Positions 25,227 through 46,740 of a DNA stretch of 64,000 bases are shown in pieces. Position numbers and translations under genes: made by a program. Where the stretch lies: NCBI RefSeq assembly GCF_027533505.1, contig NZ_JAPZUB010000041.1, forward strand, positions 1-64,000, written 5' to 3'. Numbering within the stretch: the stretch's first letter is position 1; each line of letters starts with the position of its first letter. A model generated the notes under the pieces. It made no database searches. It saw only the letters and a program-made list of their open reading frames with translations, and was not told where the DNA came from. This DNA comes from Flavobacterium sp. (GTDB lineage Bacteria > Bacteroidota > Bacteroidia > Flavobacteriales > Flavobacteriaceae).

Positions 25227-25508
25227 ATGAACAACTGGCCTCTTTGGGAAGTCTTTATCCGTAGCAAAAACGGATTAGAACACCGTCACTGCGGTTCCCT
25301 ACACGCAACCGATGCTACGATGGCTTTAGAAAACGCTCGTGATGTCTACACCCGCCGCGGCGAAGGGGTAAGTATCTGGGTCGTACCCTCAAGTCAAATT
25401 ACAGCTTCCAATCCAGAGCAAAACGGAGAGACCTTCGAACCCGCTTTGGATAAAGTATACCGTCATCCCACATTCTATGAATTGCCGGATGAGCTAAAGC
25501 ATATGTAA
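25227..25508 (+). CDS. paaB: Phenylacetyl-CoA epoxygenase subunit PaaB
   Basis: WEVFIRSKNGLEHRHCGSLHATDATMALENARDVYTRRGEGVSIWVV. Confidence 0.94.
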   Translation: MNNWPLWEVFIRSKNGLEHRHCGSLHATDATMALENARDVYTRRGEGVSIWVVPSSQITASNPEQNGETFEPALDKVYRHPTFYELPDELKHM

Positions 25509-25510
25509 AT

Positions 25511-25541
25511 GAGACATTAGACATTAGCCGTTAGTCTTTAG
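25511..25541. repeat. Heptamer arm AGACATT/AGTCTTT (left arm)
   Basis: agacatt agacatt agccgtt agtcttt; complementary to right arm motifs AAAGTCT/AACGTCT. Confidence 0.75.
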
Positions 25542-25568
25542 AAACGTAAAGGAGTAGATCTAAATTAC

Positions 25569-25715
25569 AAAGTCTAAAGTCCAAAGTCTAACGTCTAACG
25601 TCTAAAGTCCAAAGTCTAACGTCTAACGTCCAAAGTCTAAAGTCCAAAGTCCAACGTCTAACGTCTAACGTCCAACGTCCAACGTCTAAAGTCTAAAGTC
25701 CAACGTCTAACGACT
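25569..25715. repeat. 21 uninterrupted heptamers AA[AC]GTC[CT] (right arm)
   Basis: Manual parse gives 21 x 7 = 147 nt in perfect register; ends 9 bp before paaC ATG. Confidence 0.95.
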
Positions 25716-25724
25716 AAAAAAAAC

Positions 25725-26477
25725 ATGAGCAATTCAAAAATCAACTACATCCTCGGAATCGCCGACAACGCACTCAACCTTGGCCAACGCTTAAGTGAAT
25801 TATGCGGGCACGGACCGAGTTTGGAAACCGATATTGCCACGACCAACATCGCACTCGACTTGTTGGGTCAAACCCGTAGCTATTATCAATATGCAGCCGA
25901 ACTCCAAGGGGGTGAAGCTACCGAAGATACCTTGGCCTTCTTGCGCAAAGAACGCGAATACAAAAACGTCTTGTTGGTTGAACAACCCAACACCGATTTC
26001 GGCTATGTGATGGCCCGTCAATACTTGTTTGATGTATTCCATCTCTTGTTGTTGGAACAATTGCAAAACAGCAACGATGAGGTACTTGCTGCCATTGCCA
26101 AAAAGAGCATCAAAGAAGTAAGTTACCACAAGCGCTTCTCCGGCGATTGGATCAAACGCTTGGGCGACGGAACCGAAGAAAGTCATCACCGTATGCAAGA
26201 AGCCTTCGACAATTTGTGGACGTTCACCAACGAATTATTCCTAATGACCGCTGATGACACCGCCATGGTTGAAGCGGGAGTAGGGGTGGATGTGTCCCAA
26301 TTGAAAGACACTTGGATGCAAGAAATTACCGCCTTGTTGACAGAAGCGACCTTAACCGTGCCTGATTTGAAGTATTTCTTAAAAGGAGGTAAAGAGGGAA
26401 TGCACTCCGAACACATGGGCTTTATTTTGACCGATATGCAATACATGCAACGCACGTATCCAAACATGACTTGGTAA
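25725..26477 (+). CDS. paaC: Phenylacetyl-CoA epoxygenase subunit PaaC
   Basis: ALNLGQRLSELCGHGPSLETDIATTNIALDLLGQTRSYYQYAAEL. Confidence 0.94.
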   Translation: MSNSKINYILGIADNALNLGQRLSELCGHGPSLETDIATTNIALDLLGQTRSYYQYAAELQGGEATEDTLAFLRKEREYKNVLLVEQPNTDFGYVMARQYLFDVFHLLLLEQLQNSNDEVLAAIAKKSIKEVSYHKRFSGDWIKRLGDGTEESHHRMQEAFDNLWTFTNELFLMTADDTAMVEAGVGVDVSQLKDTWMQEITALLTEATLTVPDLKYFLKGGKEGMHSEHMGFILTDMQYMQRTYPNMTW

Positions 26478-27066: not shown

Positions 27067-27852
27067 ATGAGTACAACTTCAATTGAAAAAAAGATTGAAA
27101 ACAAGGTCGCGTACCTACATTTGAACCGACCCGAAGTATTCAATAGCTTCAACCGCGAAATGGCTCTTTCCATGCAATCCGCTTTGGATGAAGTGGCCCA
27201 AGACCCTGAAGTGCGCGCCATTGTGATTACCGGAAACGGGAAAGCTTTTTGTGCCGGTCAAGACTTGAAAGAAGTGACCACACCCGAACTCAATCCGGGA
27301 TTCCGAAAAATCTTAGAGGAACACTATAATCCCATTATCGAACGCATACGCGCGATCGAAAAACCCGTCGTGGCTGCCGTTAACGGTGTTGCCGCAGGAG
27401 CAGGAGCGAATATCGCTTTGGCCTGTGATATTGTGGTGGCCAACGAACATGCTGCTTTCATCCAAGCCTTTAGCAAAATCGGTCTCGTGCCCGATAGCGC
27501 GGGAACCTTTTTCTTACCTCGATTAATCGGATTCCAAAAGGCCTCCGCCTTGATGATGCTCGGCGATAAAGTGTCGGCGACCGAAGCTTATGAAATGGGA
27601 ATGATCTATAAATGTTATCCCAACGCTTTATTCGAAGAGGAAGTACAAAAGTTAGCCATAACGTTAGCCGACATGCCAACGCATGCACTAGCGCTTACCA
27701 AAAAATTGTTGAACCGTTCCATGATCAATAACCTTCAAGAACAATTGGCTATGGAAAGCGACTTGCAAATCGAAGCCAGTTCGTCCAACGATTACCGCGA
27801 AGGCGTAGCCGCTTTTGTCGAAAAACGCAAACCAGAATTTAAAGGAAACTAA
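27067..27852 (+). CDS. paaG: Enoyl-CoA hydratase/isomerase, PaaG-like ring-1,2-epoxyphenylacetyl-CoA isomerase
   Basis: crotonase motifs GKAFCAGQDLKEV, AGAGANIALACDIVVANEHAAFIQAFSKIGLVPDSAGTFFLPRL. Confidence 0.85.
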   Translation: MSTTSIEKKIENKVAYLHLNRPEVFNSFNREMALSMQSALDEVAQDPEVRAIVITGNGKAFCAGQDLKEVTTPELNPGFRKILEEHYNPIIERIRAIEKPVVAAVNGVAAGAGANIALACDIVVANEHAAFIQAFSKIGLVPDSAGTFFLPRLIGFQKASALMMLGDKVSATEAYEMGMIYKCYPNALFEEEVQKLAITLADMPTHALALTKKLLNRSMINNLQEQLAMESDLQIEASSSNDYREGVAAFVEKRKPEFKGN

Positions 27853-27853
27853 A

Positions 27854-27904
27854 GATTAACGATTGTTGATTAACGAATGAAGATTAACGATTTTTGATTG
27901 ATGA
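27854..27904. repeat. Left heptamer arm (GATTAAC/GATTGTT/GAATGAA/GATTTTT), includes 33-bp terminal inverted repeat 27866-27898
   Basis: gattaac gattgtt gattaac gaatgaa gattaac gattttt gattgat. Confidence 0.9.
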
Positions 27905-28281
27905 ATATGAAGCCGAGTAGTTTAGAAGAACGATTAATTCAATTTGCAGTTGATGTGATACATCTTACGCAAAAGAAGAATCCTACTTTCGCTTCAGAAC
28001 ATTTAACAAAACAACTAATTCGTTCCTCAACATCAGCAGCACTGAATTATGGTGAAGCAAGAAGTGGAGAGTCACCCAATGATTTTCTTCACAAAATGAA
28101 AATAGTTTTGAAAGAACTTAGAGAGAGTTTGATCAATTTGAAAATACAACAAAGAGCAGCTTTAATTGAAAAAGAGGAAGATTTGAGACGATTAATTAAT
28201 GAAAATGATGAGTTAGTCTCAATATTTGTAGCGAGTATTAAAACCGCTTCCTCAAAAAAGCAATACCATGATAGAAAGTAA
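27901..28281 (+). CDS. Four-helix bundle protein (S23 / 23S rRNA intervening-sequence protein, Avd-like family)
   Basis: LEERLIQFAVDVIHLTQKKNPTFASEHLTKQLIRSSTSAALNYGEARSGESPNDFLHKMKIVLKELRESLINLKI: family signature. Confidence 0.9.
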   Translation: MNMKPSSLEERLIQFAVDVIHLTQKKNPTFASEHLTKQLIRSSTSAALNYGEARSGESPNDFLHKMKIVLKELRESLINLKIQQRAALIEKEEDLRRLINENDELVSIFVASIKTASSKKQYHDRK

Positions 28282-28283
28282 AA

Positions 28284-28323
28284 ATCAAAAATCAAAAATC
28301 GTTAATCTTCATTCGTTAATCAA
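28284..28323. repeat. Right heptamer arm, reverse complement of left arm (33-bp perfect inverted repeat 28291-28323)
   Basis: atcaaaaatcgttaatcttcattcgttaatcaa is the exact reverse complement of 27866-27898. Confidence 0.95.
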
Positions 28324-28324
28324 T

Positions 28325-29476
28325 GTGGCGATTATCGGTTCGGGAACCATGGGCAGTGGTATCGCACAAGTGGCGGCTACCGCCGGATGTGCCGTCAAAT
28401 TGTTTGATGTGAACCAAGGCGCATTGGATAAAAGCAAAGCCGCACTTGAAGCCACTTTGTCAAAATTGGTGGAGAAAGAAAAAATCACCGCCGATACGAA
28501 AGCCGGTATTCAAAGTAGAACTGCGTATGTGACTGCGTTGTCCGATTTGTCCGATGCGGATTTGGTGATTGAAGCGATTGTGGAAAATCTAGAGGTAAAA
28601 CGCAAGTTGTTTGCCGAACTCGAAAGCATCGTGGCGCCAACAACTATTTTAGCCTCCAATACTTCCTCACTGTCGATTGCCTCAATTGCAGCTTCTTGCC
28701 AAAAATCGGAGCGCGTCATCGGGATTCACTTTTTTAATCCCGCACCGTTAATGCAATTGGTGGAAGTCATTCCTGCCGTACAAACTTCAGAAGCCGTGTT
28801 GCAAACCGCCGTGGACACCATTCGTTCTTGGAAAAAAGTAGTAGCCGTAGCCAAAGACACGCCCGGATTCATTGTGAATCGTGTGGCCCGACCCTTTTAC
28901 AGTGAAAGTTTGCGGATTTATGAGGAGGGAATGGCCGACTTTGCTACGATCGACTGGGCGTTGAAAACCGTAGGCGGTTTCCGTATGGGGCCGTTCGAAC
29001 TCATGGACTTCATCGGGAATGATGTGAACTATGCCGTAACCGAATCGGTGTTTACCTCGTTCTATTTTGATCCACGGTACAAACCGGCGTTTACCCAAAA
29101 ACGGCTAACGGAAGCCGGTTTCTTCGGAAGAAAATCCGGTCGTGGGTTCTATGATTACAGTGCAGCAATGCCTCTTCCCCAAGAAGATACAGCAATGGCA
29201 CAATGTATTTTTCAACGGGTCATCGTCATGCTTATCAATGAGGCTGCCGATGCCCATTTCCTGAATGTAGGTTCGGTACAAGACATCGACAATGCCATGA
29301 CCAAAGGGGTGAATTATCCCAAAGGTCTCCTCGCTTGGGCCGACGAACTCGGATTGCAATGGTGCGTCGACAAACTCGATGCCCTCTACGACGAATACCG
29401 CGAAGACCGCTACCGCTGCAGTCCGCTCCTTCGTAGAATGGCTAAAGCCAACCAGCGGTTTTATATAAGTGATTAG
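28325..29476 (+). CDS. paaH: 3-hydroxyacyl-CoA dehydrogenase PaaH
   Basis: VAIIGSGTMGSGIAQVAATAGCAVKLFDVN; IGIHFFNPAPLMQLVEVIP; conserved part begins at GTG 28325 (track start 28268 adds repeat-derived residues). Confidence 0.88.
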   Translation: MAIIGSGTMGSGIAQVAATAGCAVKLFDVNQGALDKSKAALEATLSKLVEKEKITADTKAGIQSRTAYVTALSDLSDADLVIEAIVENLEVKRKLFAELESIVAPTTILASNTSSLSIASIAASCQKSERVIGIHFFNPAPLMQLVEVIPAVQTSEAVLQTAVDTIRSWKKVVAVAKDTPGFIVNRVARPFYSESLRIYEEGMADFATIDWALKTVGGFRMGPFELMDFIGNDVNYAVTESVFTSFYFDPRYKPAFTQKRLTEAGFFGRKSGRGFYDYSAAMPLPQEDTAMAQCIFQRVIVMLINEAADAHFLNVGSVQDIDNAMTKGVNYPKGLLAWADELGLQWCVDKLDALYDEYREDRYRCSPLLRRMAKANQRFYISD

Positions 29477-29498
29477 TAACTAGTGACTAGTAATTAGT
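29468..29498. repeat. Left heptamer arm AGTGATT/AGTAACT/AGTGACT, overlapping the paaH stop codon
   Basis: agtgatt agtaact agtgact agtaatt agt. Confidence 0.8.
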
Positions 29499-29580
29499 TG
29501 GATGGATAAACTATTGAAAATAATGAAGAATGGTAAAAATACAAACCACCTGTCACCCCCAAGTTTCGGGGCTAGCCAGT

Positions 29581-31476: not shown

Positions 31477-31494
31477 AAAGATAAACGTTCATAT

Positions 31495-31553
31495 TAGCCC
31501 CGATGGCAGCGGCATCCCCGCAACGCAGTGAAGGGATACAGCGAACAGCGGGA
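31495..31553 (-). repeat. Inverted copy of the interspersed element
   Basis: TAGCCCCGATGGCAGCGGCATCCCCGCAACGCAGTGAAGGGATACAGCGAACAGCGGGAC. Confidence 0.6.
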
Positions 31554-31628
31554 CCAAACATACCCAAAAGCACCGGAGTTTGTGCTTCAAAAAAAATATA
31601 AAGACGCTCAGCGTCAAAAAAAAATGAT

Positions 31629-34127: not shown

Positions 34128-34132
34128 GAATT

Positions 34133-34221
34133 GGGAGCTATTTCCCGCTTTCGCCTTTACCTGCCTGCCGTCAGGCAGGTCTCTCCGCTCCGCTGCGAGG
34201 ATATCGGCTCTATCGGGGCTA
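34133..34221 (+). repeat. Copy of the ~90-bp interspersed element with nested palindrome ACCTGCCTGCCGTCAGGCAGGT
   Basis: GGGAGCTATTTCCCGCTTT...GGATATCGGCTCTATCGGGGCTA. Confidence 0.6.
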
Positions 34222-34255
34222 ATGCTTTAGCGAAGCAAGAAGATAGATGCTATTA

Positions 34256-34339
34256 ACTGAATACTGAATACTGAATACTGAATACTGATCACTGTATACT
34301 GTATACTGTATACTGAACACTGAACACTGAACACTGAAA
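34256..34339. repeat. 12 heptamers ACTGAAT/ACTGTAT/ACTGAAC
   Basis: Continuous period-7 parse, ends 3 bp before ATG 34343. Confidence 0.95.
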
Positions 34340-34342
34340 GAA

Positions 34343-35092: not shown

Positions 35093-35198
35093 GAGTGACT
35101 AGTGACTAGTGACTAGTCTTTAGTCGTTAGAGTAAAAAGTGACTAGTGATTAGTGACTAGTCGTTAGTCATTAGACGTTTGAGTAACTAGTGACTAGT
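35093..35198. repeat. Left heptamer arm (TAGTGAC/TAGTCTT/TAGTCGT family)
   Basis: gagtgactagtgactagtgactagtctttagtcgttag... Confidence 0.85.
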
Positions 35199-35215
35199 TT
35201 TCAAACAATGGACGG

Positions 35216-35320
35216 AGTAAATAGTAAACAGTGAACAGTATGTAGTAAACAGTAAACAGTAAGCAGTAAGCAGTGGACAGTAAGCAGTAAGCAGTGGACA
35301 ATAAGCAGTAATTAGTTGGT
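35216..35320. repeat. 15 heptamers AGTAAAC/AGTGAAC/AGTAAGC/AGTGGAC
   Basis: Period-7 parse in uninterrupted register. Confidence 0.92.
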
Positions 35321-35324
35321 AGTA

Positions 35325-35385
35325 ATCACTAGTTACTAATCACTAGTCACTAATCACTAGTCACTAATCACTAATCACTAATCAC
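35325..35385. repeat. Right heptamer arm (ATCACTA/GTCACTA), reverse complement of 35093-35198 family
   Basis: atcacta gttacta atcacta gtcacta ... Confidence 0.9.
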
Positions 35386-35406
35386 AAAAAATAACCAATC
35401 ATTACT

Positions 35407-36003: not shown

Positions 36004-36047
36004 ATACGGGTTCCAATTGTAATCGTTATCCCTTCAATAGGAGAATA

Positions 36048-36077
36048 ACTTGAAACTTGAAACCTGAAACCTGAAAC
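36048..36077. repeat. Heptamer array ACTTGAA/ACCTGAA
   Basis: acttgaa acttgaa acctgaa acctgaa, just upstream of ATG 36085. Confidence 0.88.
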
Positions 36078-36084
36078 AAAAACA

Positions 36085-38497: not shown

Positions 38498-40573
38498 ATG
38501 TTAGATAAAAAAATACTTGAAAAAGCGTTTACGACCTTAGTGACTGCCAAAACAATGGCGGAATGGTACGAAGCGAATTTTAAAACCGTTTCCAAATATG
38601 TGCATGCAACATCACGCGGTCATGAAGCGATTCAGATTGCGGTGGCGATGCAATTGGGTCCCCAAGATTATGCCTTCCCGTATTACCGTGATGACGCGAT
38701 GTTGTTGGGGATTGGCATGCAGCCCTATGATTTGATGTTGCAATTGCTGGCGAAGCGTGACGATCCGTTTTCTGGGGGTCGCACGTACTACTGTCACCCG
38801 AGTTTGCGCGATGCTGACAAACCCAAGATTCCGCACCAGTCGTCTGCGACGGGGATGCAAGCGATTCCCGCGACGGGCGCTGCGATGGGATTTTGGTACA
38901 AAGAGAATTGCCCCCCGACCCCCGAAGGGGGCGGATTCGAAGCAGAATTACCCCCGTTGGGGGAAAGGGGGCTGGTGGTTTGTTCGCTGGGTGATGCTTC
39001 GGTGACAGAAGGAGAGATTGCGGAAGCGTTTCAAATGGCGGCGTTGAAGCAGTTGCCGATTTTATATTTAGTACAAGATAACGGCTGGGATATTTCGGCG
39101 AATGCCAAAGAAACCCGTGCCCAAAATGCGTTTGAATATGCGAAGGGCTTCCATGGTTTGGAGGCGATTAGCATTGATGGCGCGAATTTTATAGAAAGTT
39201 ATACCGCACTGGAGCAGGTCATTCAAACGATACGTACCGAGCGTCGTCCGTTTTTGGTACATGCGAAAGTGCCGTTGTTGAACCACCACACTTCTGGGGT
39301 GCGCATGGAATGGTACCGGGACGACTTGGACGAAGCGCGTTCGCGGGATCCATATCCGGTGCTATGGCAACAAATGCGGGAAGCGGGTTTCACGGAAAGC
39401 GATTTGCAAGCGATTGAAGCCGCCGTTTTAGCAAAAGTGGAAGCGGATTACGAAAAGGCGTTGGCGGCAGAAGATCCACGCCCGGAGGATTTGTTTACGC
39501 ATGATTTTGCCCCTACACCGATTACGGAGGAAGTGGGCGAGCGCTGTCCAGAGCGGGAGGATAAAGTGGTGATGGTGGATTGTGCTTTGTTTGCCGTCGA
39601 AGAACTGATGAAACAGCATCCCGAATGTTTGTTGTACGGACAAGACGTAGGTGGACGCTTGGGCGGTGTATTCCGTGAAGCGGCGACCTTGGCGCAGAAG
39701 TTTGGCGACAACCGGGTATTTAATACGCCCATTCAAGAAGCCTTTATTGTGGGTTCGACCGTGGGGATGTCGGCGGTAGGCTTAAAACCGATTGTTGAGG
39801 TACAGTTTGCCGATTACATTTGGCCGGGCTTAAACCAGTTGTTTACCGAGGTGAGTCGCTCCAACTATTTAACCAACGGAAAGTGGCCGGTGAGTATGAT
39901 CTTGCGGGTGCCGATTGGGGCGTATGGTAGCGGCGGACCTTATCACTCGTCTTCTGTGGAGAGTGTGTTGACGAATATTCGTGGGATTAAGATTGCGTAT
40001 CCGAGTAACGGGGCGGACTTGAAGGGCTTGCTGAAAGCGGCTTACTACGACCCGAATCCGGTGGTGATTTTGGAACACAAAGGGTTGTACTGGAGTAAGG
40101 TGAAAGGCACGGAGATGGCGCGGGTGAACGAACCTTCGGAAGACTATGTGTTACCGTTTGGAAAAGCAACTATTGTACAAGAAATATGGCCGCAAGAAAC
40201 CCAAGAGACCGTTACGGTGATTACCTACGGGATGGGGGTGCATTGGGCATTGAACGCTTCGGCGGGGATGGCAACACAGGTGGAGATTGTGGACTTGCGT
40301 ACGCTGTATCCTCTGGATGAAGAAACGATTTTCAAATCAGTACGTAAGGCGAAGAAATGTTTGGTGGTGACGGAAGAGCCGGTGAACAATTCGTTTGCAC
40401 GGAGTTTGGCGGGTCGTATTCAAGAGGTGTGTTTCCGTGACTTGGATGCGCCGGTGATGGTGATTGGTTCGGAAAATCTTCCGGCGATACCGTTGAACAG
40501 TACGCTAGAGCAAACGATGATTCCTAGTGCGGAAAAGGTGCGGGTGAAGATTGAAGAACTTTTACGGTATTAG
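38498..40573 (+). CDS. Branched-chain ketoacid dehydrogenase E1, fused alpha-beta subunits
   Basis: E1alpha: SRGHEAIQIA, SLGDASVTEGEIAEAFQMA; E1beta: GQDVGGRLGGVFREA, HSSSVESVLTNIRGIKIAYPS; start at internal ATG 38498. Confidence 0.9.
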   Translation: MLDKKILEKAFTTLVTAKTMAEWYEANFKTVSKYVHATSRGHEAIQIAVAMQLGPQDYAFPYYRDDAMLLGIGMQPYDLMLQLLAKRDDPFSGGRTYYCHPSLRDADKPKIPHQSSATGMQAIPATGAAMGFWYKENCPPTPEGGGFEAELPPLGERGLVVCSLGDASVTEGEIAEAFQMAALKQLPILYLVQDNGWDISANAKETRAQNAFEYAKGFHGLEAISIDGANFIESYTALEQVIQTIRTERRPFLVHAKVPLLNHHTSGVRMEWYRDDLDEARSRDPYPVLWQQMREAGFTESDLQAIEAAVLAKVEADYEKALAAEDPRPEDLFTHDFAPTPITEEVGERCPEREDKVVMVDCALFAVEELMKQHPECLLYGQDVGGRLGGVFREAATLAQKFGDNRVFNTPIQEAFIVGSTVGMSAVGLKPIVEVQFADYIWPGLNQLFTEVSRSNYLTNGKWPVSMILRVPIGAYGSGGPYHSSSVESVLTNIRGIKIAYPSNGADLKGLLKAAYYDPNPVVILEHKGLYWSKVKGTEMARVNEPSEDYVLPFGKATIVQEIWPQETQETVTVITYGMGVHWALNASAGMATQVEIVDLRTLYPLDEETIFKSVRKAKKCLVVTEEPVNNSFARSLAGRIQEVCFRDLDAPVMVIGSENLPAIPLNSTLEQTMIPSAEKVRVKIEELLRY
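38911..38973. repeat. Palindromic G/C-rich element in frame within E1 CDS
   Basis: CCCCCCGACCCCCGAAGGGGGC...TTACCCCCGTTGGGGGAAAGGGGGCT encoding PPTPEGGGFEAELPPLGERGL. Confidence 0.8.
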
Positions 40574-40606
40574 TTTAAAGTTTCAGGTTTCAAGTTTCAA
40601 GTTTTG
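40572..40606. repeat. Heptamer array AGTTTCA/GGTTTCA, overlapping the E1 stop codon
   Basis: agtttaa agtttca ggtttca agtttca agttttg; 23-bp exact reverse complement match to 36048-36070. Confidence 0.88.
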
Positions 40607-40617
40607 GAACGTATAGA

Positions 40618-40660
40618 ATCCCGAGGATGATCAGGTGTGGTTGTTCTCGGGGTTTTGTTT
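40618..40660 (+). terminator. Possible terminator after bkd E1
   Basis: cccgag...ctcgggg followed by ttttgttttt. Confidence 0.4.
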
Positions 40661-40662
40661 TT

Positions 40663-40735
40663 GTTTAAAGTTTAAAGTTTAAGGTTTCAGGTTTCAGGTT
40701 TATCCCGGAATTTCGGGATCAGGTTTCAAGTTGTG
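40663..40735. repeat. GTTTAAA/GGTTTCA heptamer array split by palindrome ATCCCGGAATTTCGGGAT (40702-40719)
   Basis: gtttaaagtttaaagtttaaggtttcaggtttcaggttt | insert | caggtttcaag. Confidence 0.75.
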
Positions 40736-40782
40736 GTGTAAAAGCTTAATTCTCTTAATGGTTAATTTAGTATATAGCGACT

Positions 40783-40834
40783 TTTTTTAACCGCAAAGTG
40801 GCAAAGAATTCGCAAAGTTCGCGAAGTTTTTAAA
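40783..40834. repeat. Short GCAAAG repeat (TTCGCAAAG-like, period ~9-10)
   Basis: aaccgcaaagtggcaaagaattcgcaaagttcgcgaag. Confidence 0.6.
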
Positions 40835-40860
40835 GGGGAGGAAGGCGCTGCGCTTTTGGT

Positions 40861-40902
40861 AAGTTTCAGGTTTGAAGTTTCAAGTTTCAAGTTTCAGGTT
40901 GG
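40861..40902. repeat. Heptamer array AGTTTCA/GGTTTCA
   Basis: aagtttcaggtttgaagtttcaagtttcaagtttcaggtt. Confidence 0.8.
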
Positions 40903-40980
40903 GGTGTAATGAGGACGTATGTGGGATTGCGGGAGGAAAAGTTTAAAAAAGTGTAATGGAGTAAATTGTCGTTTCGATTA

Positions 40981-41196
40981 CTAAGGAGCTCTACAACGTC
41001 CTGTTTGTTTCATTTCGACGATAGGAGAAATCCCATTCCATTCTTCACGCAACGATTGAAACCCATGGTAAAAATTAAATCCATCAAAATAAAAAACCAC
41101 TTTTTTGGGAGGTATTTGTTGGATTTCTTCAGCTTGTTTTATTTCTTCAGTCATAAGTGCATATAAAAAAAAAGCTCCCAGTAGGAGCAGGTTCAT
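40981..41196 (-). pseudogene. Possible remnant of a NYN-domain (LabA-like) protein
   Basis: KKVVFYFDGFNFYHGFQSLREEWNGI resembles the NYN N-terminus, truncated at 71 aa. Confidence 0.4.
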
Positions 41197-41268
41197 AATA
41201 CTGAGATTATGAGGTGGCGTTAATAGGTAACAAAAATAAAACTATTTTTTATAAAAACAATTTTTTTG

Positions 41269-41352
41269 TTTCAGGTTTCAAGTTTATTCCGCTTCGCTCC
41301 ATCAGTCGGCTAAAGCCTCGTGTCAGGTTTCAAGTTTAAAGTTTTAGGTTGG
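41269..41352. repeat. Heptamer array GTTTCAG split by a 38-nt segment (41286-41323)
   Basis: tttcaggtttcaagttta | ttccgcttcgctccatcagtcggctaaagcctcgtgtc | aggtttcaagtttaaagtttta. Confidence 0.6.
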
Positions 41353-41390
41353 TGGGTTGGTGGGAGGTATGTGGTTCTAGTGGGGTTTTT

Positions 41391-41427
41391 ACTTTTTGTC
41401 TTGACACAAAAAGTAACAAAAAAGTCA
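41391..41427. repeat. Hairpin repeat ACTTTTTGTCTTGACACAAAAAGT...GTCAAGG
   Basis: Inverted repeat ACTTTTTGT/ACAAAAAGT with nested CTTGAC/GTCAAG. Confidence 0.55.
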
Positions 41428-41799
41428 AGGCATTTGCAGTGAACAGTTGCAGTATTCAGAAATCAGTATTGCTAAATAAATCTAGATGCTTCAATTCATT
41501 TATTCGGTGCTCCTATGCAGATGCTGTTTTTTGAACTTGAAACCATTCATAATTTATAATTCATCATTCATAATTATAAAAATGTGGGTTGCTCCTTGCC
41601 GCTCCAACCCTTGAAAAGATACGCTTTTTTCTATTAGGCCGAGGACGTCCTACAAACGTATGTGCACGAATACACTGAAAACCGTCCTGTTTTGATCGTT
41701 CTTCAGTTATCGGTTGGAATTTTGAATTTTGTTTTTTTTAAAATTTAAGGTTGTTGTGTTATATGAATGCCTGTGGATTAGTGGAGGAGGGTAAAAGTT

Positions 41800-46654: not shown

Positions 46655-46740
46655 GTTGCTAAGCTGCTGAGTTGCTGAGCTGCTGAGTTGCTGAGCTGCT
46701 GAGCTTCTGAGCTTCTGAGTGGCTAAGCTTCTGAGTGGGT
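46655..46740. repeat. Octamer tandem array (GCTGCTGA/GTTGCTGA/GCTTCTGA)
   Basis: gctgctga gttgctga gctgctga gttgctga gctgctga gcttctga gcttctga. Confidence 0.9.

Follow-up and report, generated by a model that had tools for sequence, protein, structure and literature searches.

Between paaB and paaC, two genes of the phenylacetyl-CoA epoxidase operon of a Flavobacterium near F. fontis, lies a run of heptamers so regular that it raises the question of whether it is a leader peculiar to paaC or one member of a wider class of elements, and of how such an array has come to occupy an intercistronic gap. We addressed this question in a stretch of 64,000 nucleotides (the window), in further sequence of the same genome and in related genomes. 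An earlier note on this DNA had described 21 heptamers without phase slip at the paaB-paaC junction, with variation nearly confined to two sites of the unit, a short reverse-complement arm upstream and a loop of about 27 nt. This description proved accurate, and the parts of the junction are as follows.

25227..25508, + strand: paaB, the upstream gene (NCBIfam TIGR02157, 5.2e-42)
25512..25541, + strand: 5' (left) arm, four reverse-complement heptamers, 3 nt past the paaB stop codon (sequence)
25542..25568, + strand: spacer (loop) measuring 27 nt, common to the D4 MAG and missing from F. fontis and RE-26jul17
25569..25715, + strand: 3' (right) arm, 21 heptamers [CT]AA[AC]GTC (sequence, Tandem Repeats Finder)
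25716..25724, + strand: A-rich leader immediately before the paaC start codon, lacking a U-run (sequence)
25725..26477, + strand: paaC, the downstream gene (NCBIfam TIGR02158, 1.6e-85)

Anatomy and turnover of the paaB-paaC array

The 21 units stand back to back. Tandem Repeats Finder placed the array at 25569-25718, with period 7, 21.4 copies and 0% indels, and its lag-7 identity was 0.853, compared with a maximum of 0.399 in 5000 composition shuffles. Four positions of the unit are constant throughout and a fifth is changed only once, in the final unit (TAACGAC); the two free sites are near balance (T12/C9 and C11/A10) and unlinked, with combination counts of 7/5/5/4. The left arm reads AGACATT AGACATT AGCCGTT AGTCTTT AG, which is the reverse complement of the array units, and is predicted to pair with the first of them. 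In the predicted fold only about the first six units are able to pair with this arm, and the remainder is excess. RNA folding, which the earlier note had proposed as a check, predicted a stem in this gap, with fold z-scores of -2.2 and -2.8 in two computations. The 27-nt spacer holds no ORF, and no Rfam family was found at the array in an Rfam scan; the Flavo-1 sRNA (RF01705) lies between two genes elsewhere in the window, at 31492-31559. An intrinsic terminator, consisting of a G+C-rich stem and a U-run, can be ruled out, because the array is followed by an A-rich leader without a U-run and then by the paaC start codon.

Across relatives, copy number differs with the period intact. The junction holds 21 units in the window, about 11 in the D4 MAG and 5 in each of F. 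fontis and RE-26jul17, and the left arm is common to these three relatives and nearly invariant in them. Because the series of 5, 5, about 11 and 21 units proceeds by whole heptamers, the window copy appears as the overgrown 3' arm of an inverted repeat. On the most economical reading, a short, near-balanced inverted repeat would have had its right arm amplified in the lineage of the window and D4, a direction of change that we infer. In F. fontis and RE-26jul17 the arrays of only 5 units vary at the two free sites as well, and the two-site variation therefore counts as inherited and not as a sign of selection on each unit. The earlier note's preference for copying over simple slippage decay was upheld in part, by the change in whole heptamers and by simulation: duplicating blocks of up to ten units, with a D4-like array as the starting point, fits the observed pattern, and single-unit growth from a D4-like 10-unit array, as simulated with no new changes, was rejected for its excess neighbour identity (maximum-lag p < 0.003).

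Heptamer arrays across the genome and their orientation

About 18 more period-7 segments are present in the window, nearly all of them intergenic, and the intergenic DNA of the window shows autocorrelation peaks at 7, 14, 21 and 28 that its coding DNA lacks. With genes called by a hexamer-model caller, a 1.07-Mb sample of the genome, partly chosen for array hits, contains 154 period-7 segments; the corresponding counts at lags 8, 9 and 11 are 32, 13 and 19. Coding DNA makes up 88.5% of the sample, but just 10 of the 154 segments lie mostly within it. In the 667 kb not selected on array hits, 42 segments were counted at lag 7, and 19, 5, 3 and 7 at lags 8, 9, 10 and 11, respectively. The arrays use about 50 different consensus heptamers, or dialects. 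The exact family of the paaB-paaC array, with the same two variable sites, occurs at many genome loci, and its four unit types recur elsewhere with 141 matches versus 8 for a reversed-pattern control. A one-off special leader of paaC is thus ruled out, as the class is found throughout the genome. The effect on paaC expression specific to this junction, which the earlier note had implied, is unsupported, for arrays of this kind form a class that extends over the genome and the phylum.

Two further possibilities were rejected. Wholesale copying between loci is not indicated, as the longest run of units that the paaB-paaC array has in common with another array (L130) is 3, not above shuffles. Nor do the arrays look like all-frame stop signals: a stop on at least one strand occurs in 37 of the 50 distinct heptamers, no excess over the 35.4 of shuffled ones, and stops on both strands show a modest excess (24 of 50 versus 14.4). 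Two larger arrangements were also seen. A long gene-poor region after a stop codon contains a series of AGTTTCA/GGTTTCA heptamer blocks (40571-41576), and at locus L121 (3855-4370) heptamer blocks of one dialect recur about six times at a spacing of about 60 bp with a CCCCGAAACTTCGGGG palindrome between them, forming a higher-order repeat.

In many cases the array contributes the upstream gene's stop codon or extends to the next start codon, and the paaH-paaI gap has one arm at each end.

29464..29499, + strand: left arm of the paaH-paaI gap, GTGACTAG dialect, supplying the paaH stop codon
29576..29746, + strand: right arm of the same gap, immediately ahead of the paaI start; its TCACTAG dialect passes into AACTCAT

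The final codons and the stop codon of paaH lie inside the heptamer array (29464-29476). Both arms are conserved in F. fontis with fewer units, and the array at 36004-36084 is likewise kept with a different copy number. At other sites the dialect itself has turned over: in the gap at 34128-34342, with the same start codon, ACTGAAT of the window is replaced by TCACTA in F. fontis, and other repeats take the place of the window array at 35093-35406.

The orientation of the arrays depends on which end of a gene they touch. In same-direction gaps of the source genome, C exceeds G on the sense strand in 14 of 14 cases in which the array touches a start codon, and G exceeds C in 12 of 12 cases in which it touches a stop codon (Fisher p 1e-7). 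Across all gap types the respective polarity holds in 19 of 21 start-side and 19 of 22 stop-side cases, and gaps without arrays show no comparable skew (58% on the start side and 39% on the stop side). The start-side trend was also found in 10 of 11 start-side arrays from 40 stretches of the genus Flavobacterium and in 22 of 31 arrays at named paaC loci of Flavobacterium and Flavobacteriaceae samples; the stop-side trend is weaker outside the source genome (4 of 9 and 11 of 15, respectively). In F. johnsoniae, translation operates without Shine-Dalgarno sequences and responds to structure and to A residues ahead of the start (PMC6847099). The mRNA start region may act as a filter on array orientation, in that the G-poor, A/C-rich orientation before starts would be kept because initiation without Shine-Dalgarno sequences needs an unstructured A-rich leader. 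Such a constraint at the start codon leaves the polarity of one-armed arrays after stop codons unexplained.

Complementary arms and IVP genes

The three paa gaps, gathered from up to 74 loci with near-duplicates removed, retain complementary arms across species while the arm sequence is replaced. Within-species arm complementarity in the paaA-paaB gap was 10.8, compared with 6.5 for swapped partners (z 11.3); the same comparison gave z 6.9 for paaB-paaC and z 5.6 for paaC-paaD, and in each of the three gaps none of 20,000 permutations reached the observed matching. Many paaA-paaB gaps of Flavobacterium are compact heptamer hairpins of 58-85 nt, each with its own sequence. Complementarity of gap ends is not general, however, as 26 period-7-rich same-direction gaps of 45-250 nt in the source genome gave z 0.5; many arrays in this genome are one-armed, and a hairpin was rejected as the rule for all of them. 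Two side observations concern this data set: another dispersed hairpin, TGTCATTCTGAACTTGTTTCAGAATCTCAT, occupies the paaC-paaD gap at L051, L053, L066 and L069, and two loci titled as Bifidobacterium breve and Rhizobium MAGs (L034 and L035; PaaC identity 73% and 71%) carry Flavobacterium-like paa operons, so that their titles look mislabelled.

A longer element (27852-28309) lies within the paa operon itself, four genes downstream of the paaB-paaC array. Between its arms it encodes a protein of a four-helix-bundle family (IVP) that was first known from extra segments in ribosomal RNA.

27853..27900, + strand: left arm of the ORF-bearing element, GATTAACG... heptamers (L241, inverted-pair score 35)
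27901..28281, + strand: 23S-rRNA-intervening-sequence-type four-helix-bundle (IVP) ORF between the arms (profile matches)
28271..28309, + strand: right arm of the ORF-bearing element, overlapping both the 3' end of the ORF and paaH at its called start

The ORF matches TIGR02436 (4.9e-22), PF05635 (7.7e-13) and PDB 2rld (8.8e-10). The called paaH start (28268-28320) overlaps the end of the IVP ORF and the right arm; since the first 14-17 residues of paaH would be array-encoded and are outside the family match, the true start may be downstream.

Inverted arms around IVP genes are widespread. The source genome has 16 IVP family matches, and in the 15 tested the inverted flank score averaged 22.7, whereas swapped partners gave 11.6 (z 10.4). 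A gene's own flank partner scored best in 12 of them, and 13 reached a score of at least 12, compared with 18% of control genes. The arms of these bracketed genes use a separate dialect at each locus. Further IVP loci from the genus and the phylum gave z 22.3; of these 55 loci, 36 scored above the 95th percentile reached by swapped pairs, among them 22 of the 25 that belong to the genus. The commonest arm period at those 36 loci was 7 (21 loci), followed by 8. In other families the arms may use 6- or 8-mers, and in Winogradskyella, Psychroserpens and relatives (L052, L071, L085 and L093) the arms of IVP genes look like 6-mers (GAAATT/AATTTC). An octamer array in the window (46655-46736, TGCTGAGC, about 10 copies) has a unit that resembles the CTGAGCTGCT-type arm by the IVP gene of L231.

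The paaB-paaC junction is itself a site of such elements. In relatives, nine paaB-paaC gaps exceed 280 nt, and every one of them contains an IVP ORF, as do 2 of 4 long paaA-paaB and 5 of 7 long paaC-paaD gaps; one of the paaB-paaC elements (L048) has arms, TTAGTCG/CGACTAA, close to the window's own units. In the source genome, 97 of the 154 arrays use a heptamer that also flanks an IVP gene, compared with 8% of random 7-mers; the exact dialect of the window array is not found beside any IVP gene there. A literature search, which was not aimed at IVP genes, found no paper joining heptamer arrays to these genes.

Origin of the elements and known systems

We propose that the paaB-paaC array is probably the overgrown 3' arm of an ORF-less intercistronic inverted-repeat element, one of a class in Flavobacterium and other Bacteroidota whose full form carries an IVP gene. 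The full form would comprise a left arm by the upstream stop codon, the IVP ORF and a complementary right arm before the next start codon; in the short form, exemplified by the paaB-paaC gap, a short loop without an ORF would separate the arms. This proposal builds on the anatomy of the array, its polarity, its turnover by whole heptamers and the replacement of dialects at the same site. It also takes in the arms of the paa operon, which are matched within but not between species, the IVP genes, which are bracketed far beyond controls, and the IVP-bearing elements at the paaB-paaC junction of relatives. During replication, arms may lengthen as blocks of several heptamers are duplicated in tandem, and strand switching templated by the hairpin, which would copy one arm onto the other, could keep them complementary. 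As a period of 7 is not a multiple of 3, growth into genes would be purged and the arrays would remain intergenic. The least certain point is the proposed tie of the ORF-less hairpins to the IVP protein, as its derivatives or as its targets. It is conceivable, though doubtful, that a single genetic system across Bacteroidota unites IVP proteins with inverted heptad arrays. The protein would then recognise heptad hairpins in intercistronic RNA or DNA, or spread or maintain them; ORF-less hairpins such as that at paaB-paaC would be its non-autonomous copies, and 23S rRNA intervening sequences would be one special case among operon-invading elements. Because the dialect varies by locus, common element ends of the MITE type are not evident.

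Alternatively, complementarity might be kept by selection on an RNA hairpin with a role in the mRNA, such as stability, RNase III processing, or translational insulation or coupling of PaaB and PaaC. Such selection would accord with the paaA-paaB stems, which have fold z < -2 in 26 of 35 gaps (mean z -3.2) and arms adjoining stop and start codons, with both-side changes in 5 of 12 base pairs of a 10-species alignment, and with an array orientation that tracks genes. However, sense RNA is not more stable than antisense in heptamer gaps, being if anything slightly less so (p 0.01), and G-U pairs show no excess on the sense strand; selection for a strong RNA stem is therefore not indicated. One-armed arrays are also common, and close relatives tolerate 5 to 21 copies. 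A DNA-level process that matches the arms fits at least as well, for example replication template switching, which a published account treats as a maker and keeper of hairpins (PMC8794818), and we consider a selected RNA hairpin unlikely.

The array could also be a neutral, slippage-grown VNTR in unconstrained intergenic DNA, with the opposite arm and the IVP neighbourhood incidental. Its copy number does differ between relatives, and mostly intergenic heptamer VNTRs vary between F. psychrophilum isolates (PMC4501049), but this plain microsatellite reading is already disfavoured and seems quite improbable given the rejection of single-unit growth by simulation, the gene-polar orientation of arrays, the arms matched across species and the IVP bracketing at z 10.4 and 22.3. 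The near-invariance of five of the seven unit positions over 21 units, and the ending of arrays beside start codons, might instead suggest repeated sites for a DNA- or RNA-binding regulator controlling downstream translation, as MacGregor proposed for TAACTGA; yet dialects switch at orthologous positions, each genome uses dozens of different heptamers and unit number is not conserved, which makes regulator binding very improbable.

For the preferred reading, an overgrown arm of an inverted-repeat element, the bracketing of IVP genes is of particular value, as it ties the function and spread of the IVP protein to the origin of the intergenic heptamer repeats of Bacteroidetes, both of which are, to our knowledge, open questions, and offers a concrete testable substrate. 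The element class explains operon spacers that look like noise, and, as each genome has dozens of loci that all differ in sequence, it supplies natural replicates for studying how complementary arms originate and persist.

Several known systems share features with these elements. The 23S rRNA intervening sequence (PF05635/TIGR02436) lies within the 23S rRNA gene and is cleaved out of the transcript by RNase III without religation. The elements described here resemble it in having an inverted-repeat stem and a full form with an IVP ORF between the arms; this ORF is missing from the window's paaB-paaC copy and is found at 27901-28281 and at the junctions of nine relatives. In contrast to the intervening sequence, they occupy intercistronic gaps of protein operons rather than rRNA genes, the present array lying between paaB and paaC; their arms are degenerate 6-8-mer arrays with locus-specific sequence, and many copies are without the ORF. 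The cyanobacterial STRR are likewise degenerate heptamers, some of which occur in both strands of the P6b stem of the tRNA-Leu intron and are in that case complementary across a stem, but they belong to another phylum and another location.

TAACTGA direct repeats occupy intergenic regions of Beggiatoaceae, Cyanobacteria and some Bacteroidetes; they are mostly forward and just upstream of start codons, and Flexibacter litoralis has one reversed set directly after a stop codon (MacGregor 2015, PMC4679880). The paaB-paaC array is similar in its period of 7 and in its intergenic, forward position near a start codon, whereas the many dialects, the paired arms and the IVP link set the present elements apart, and the source genome, with 0 matches to TAACTGATAACTGA, contains no tandem TAACTGA. 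For F. psychrophilum, 8 of 12 VNTR motifs in Table 3 of Apablaza 2015 (PMC4501049) are heptamers, nearly all intergenic, and several of these loci differ among isolates; they served as typing markers, and arms, polarity and IVP context do not figure in the passages considered. The paaB-paaC array is comparable to a VNTR in that its copy number varies by whole units among relatives.
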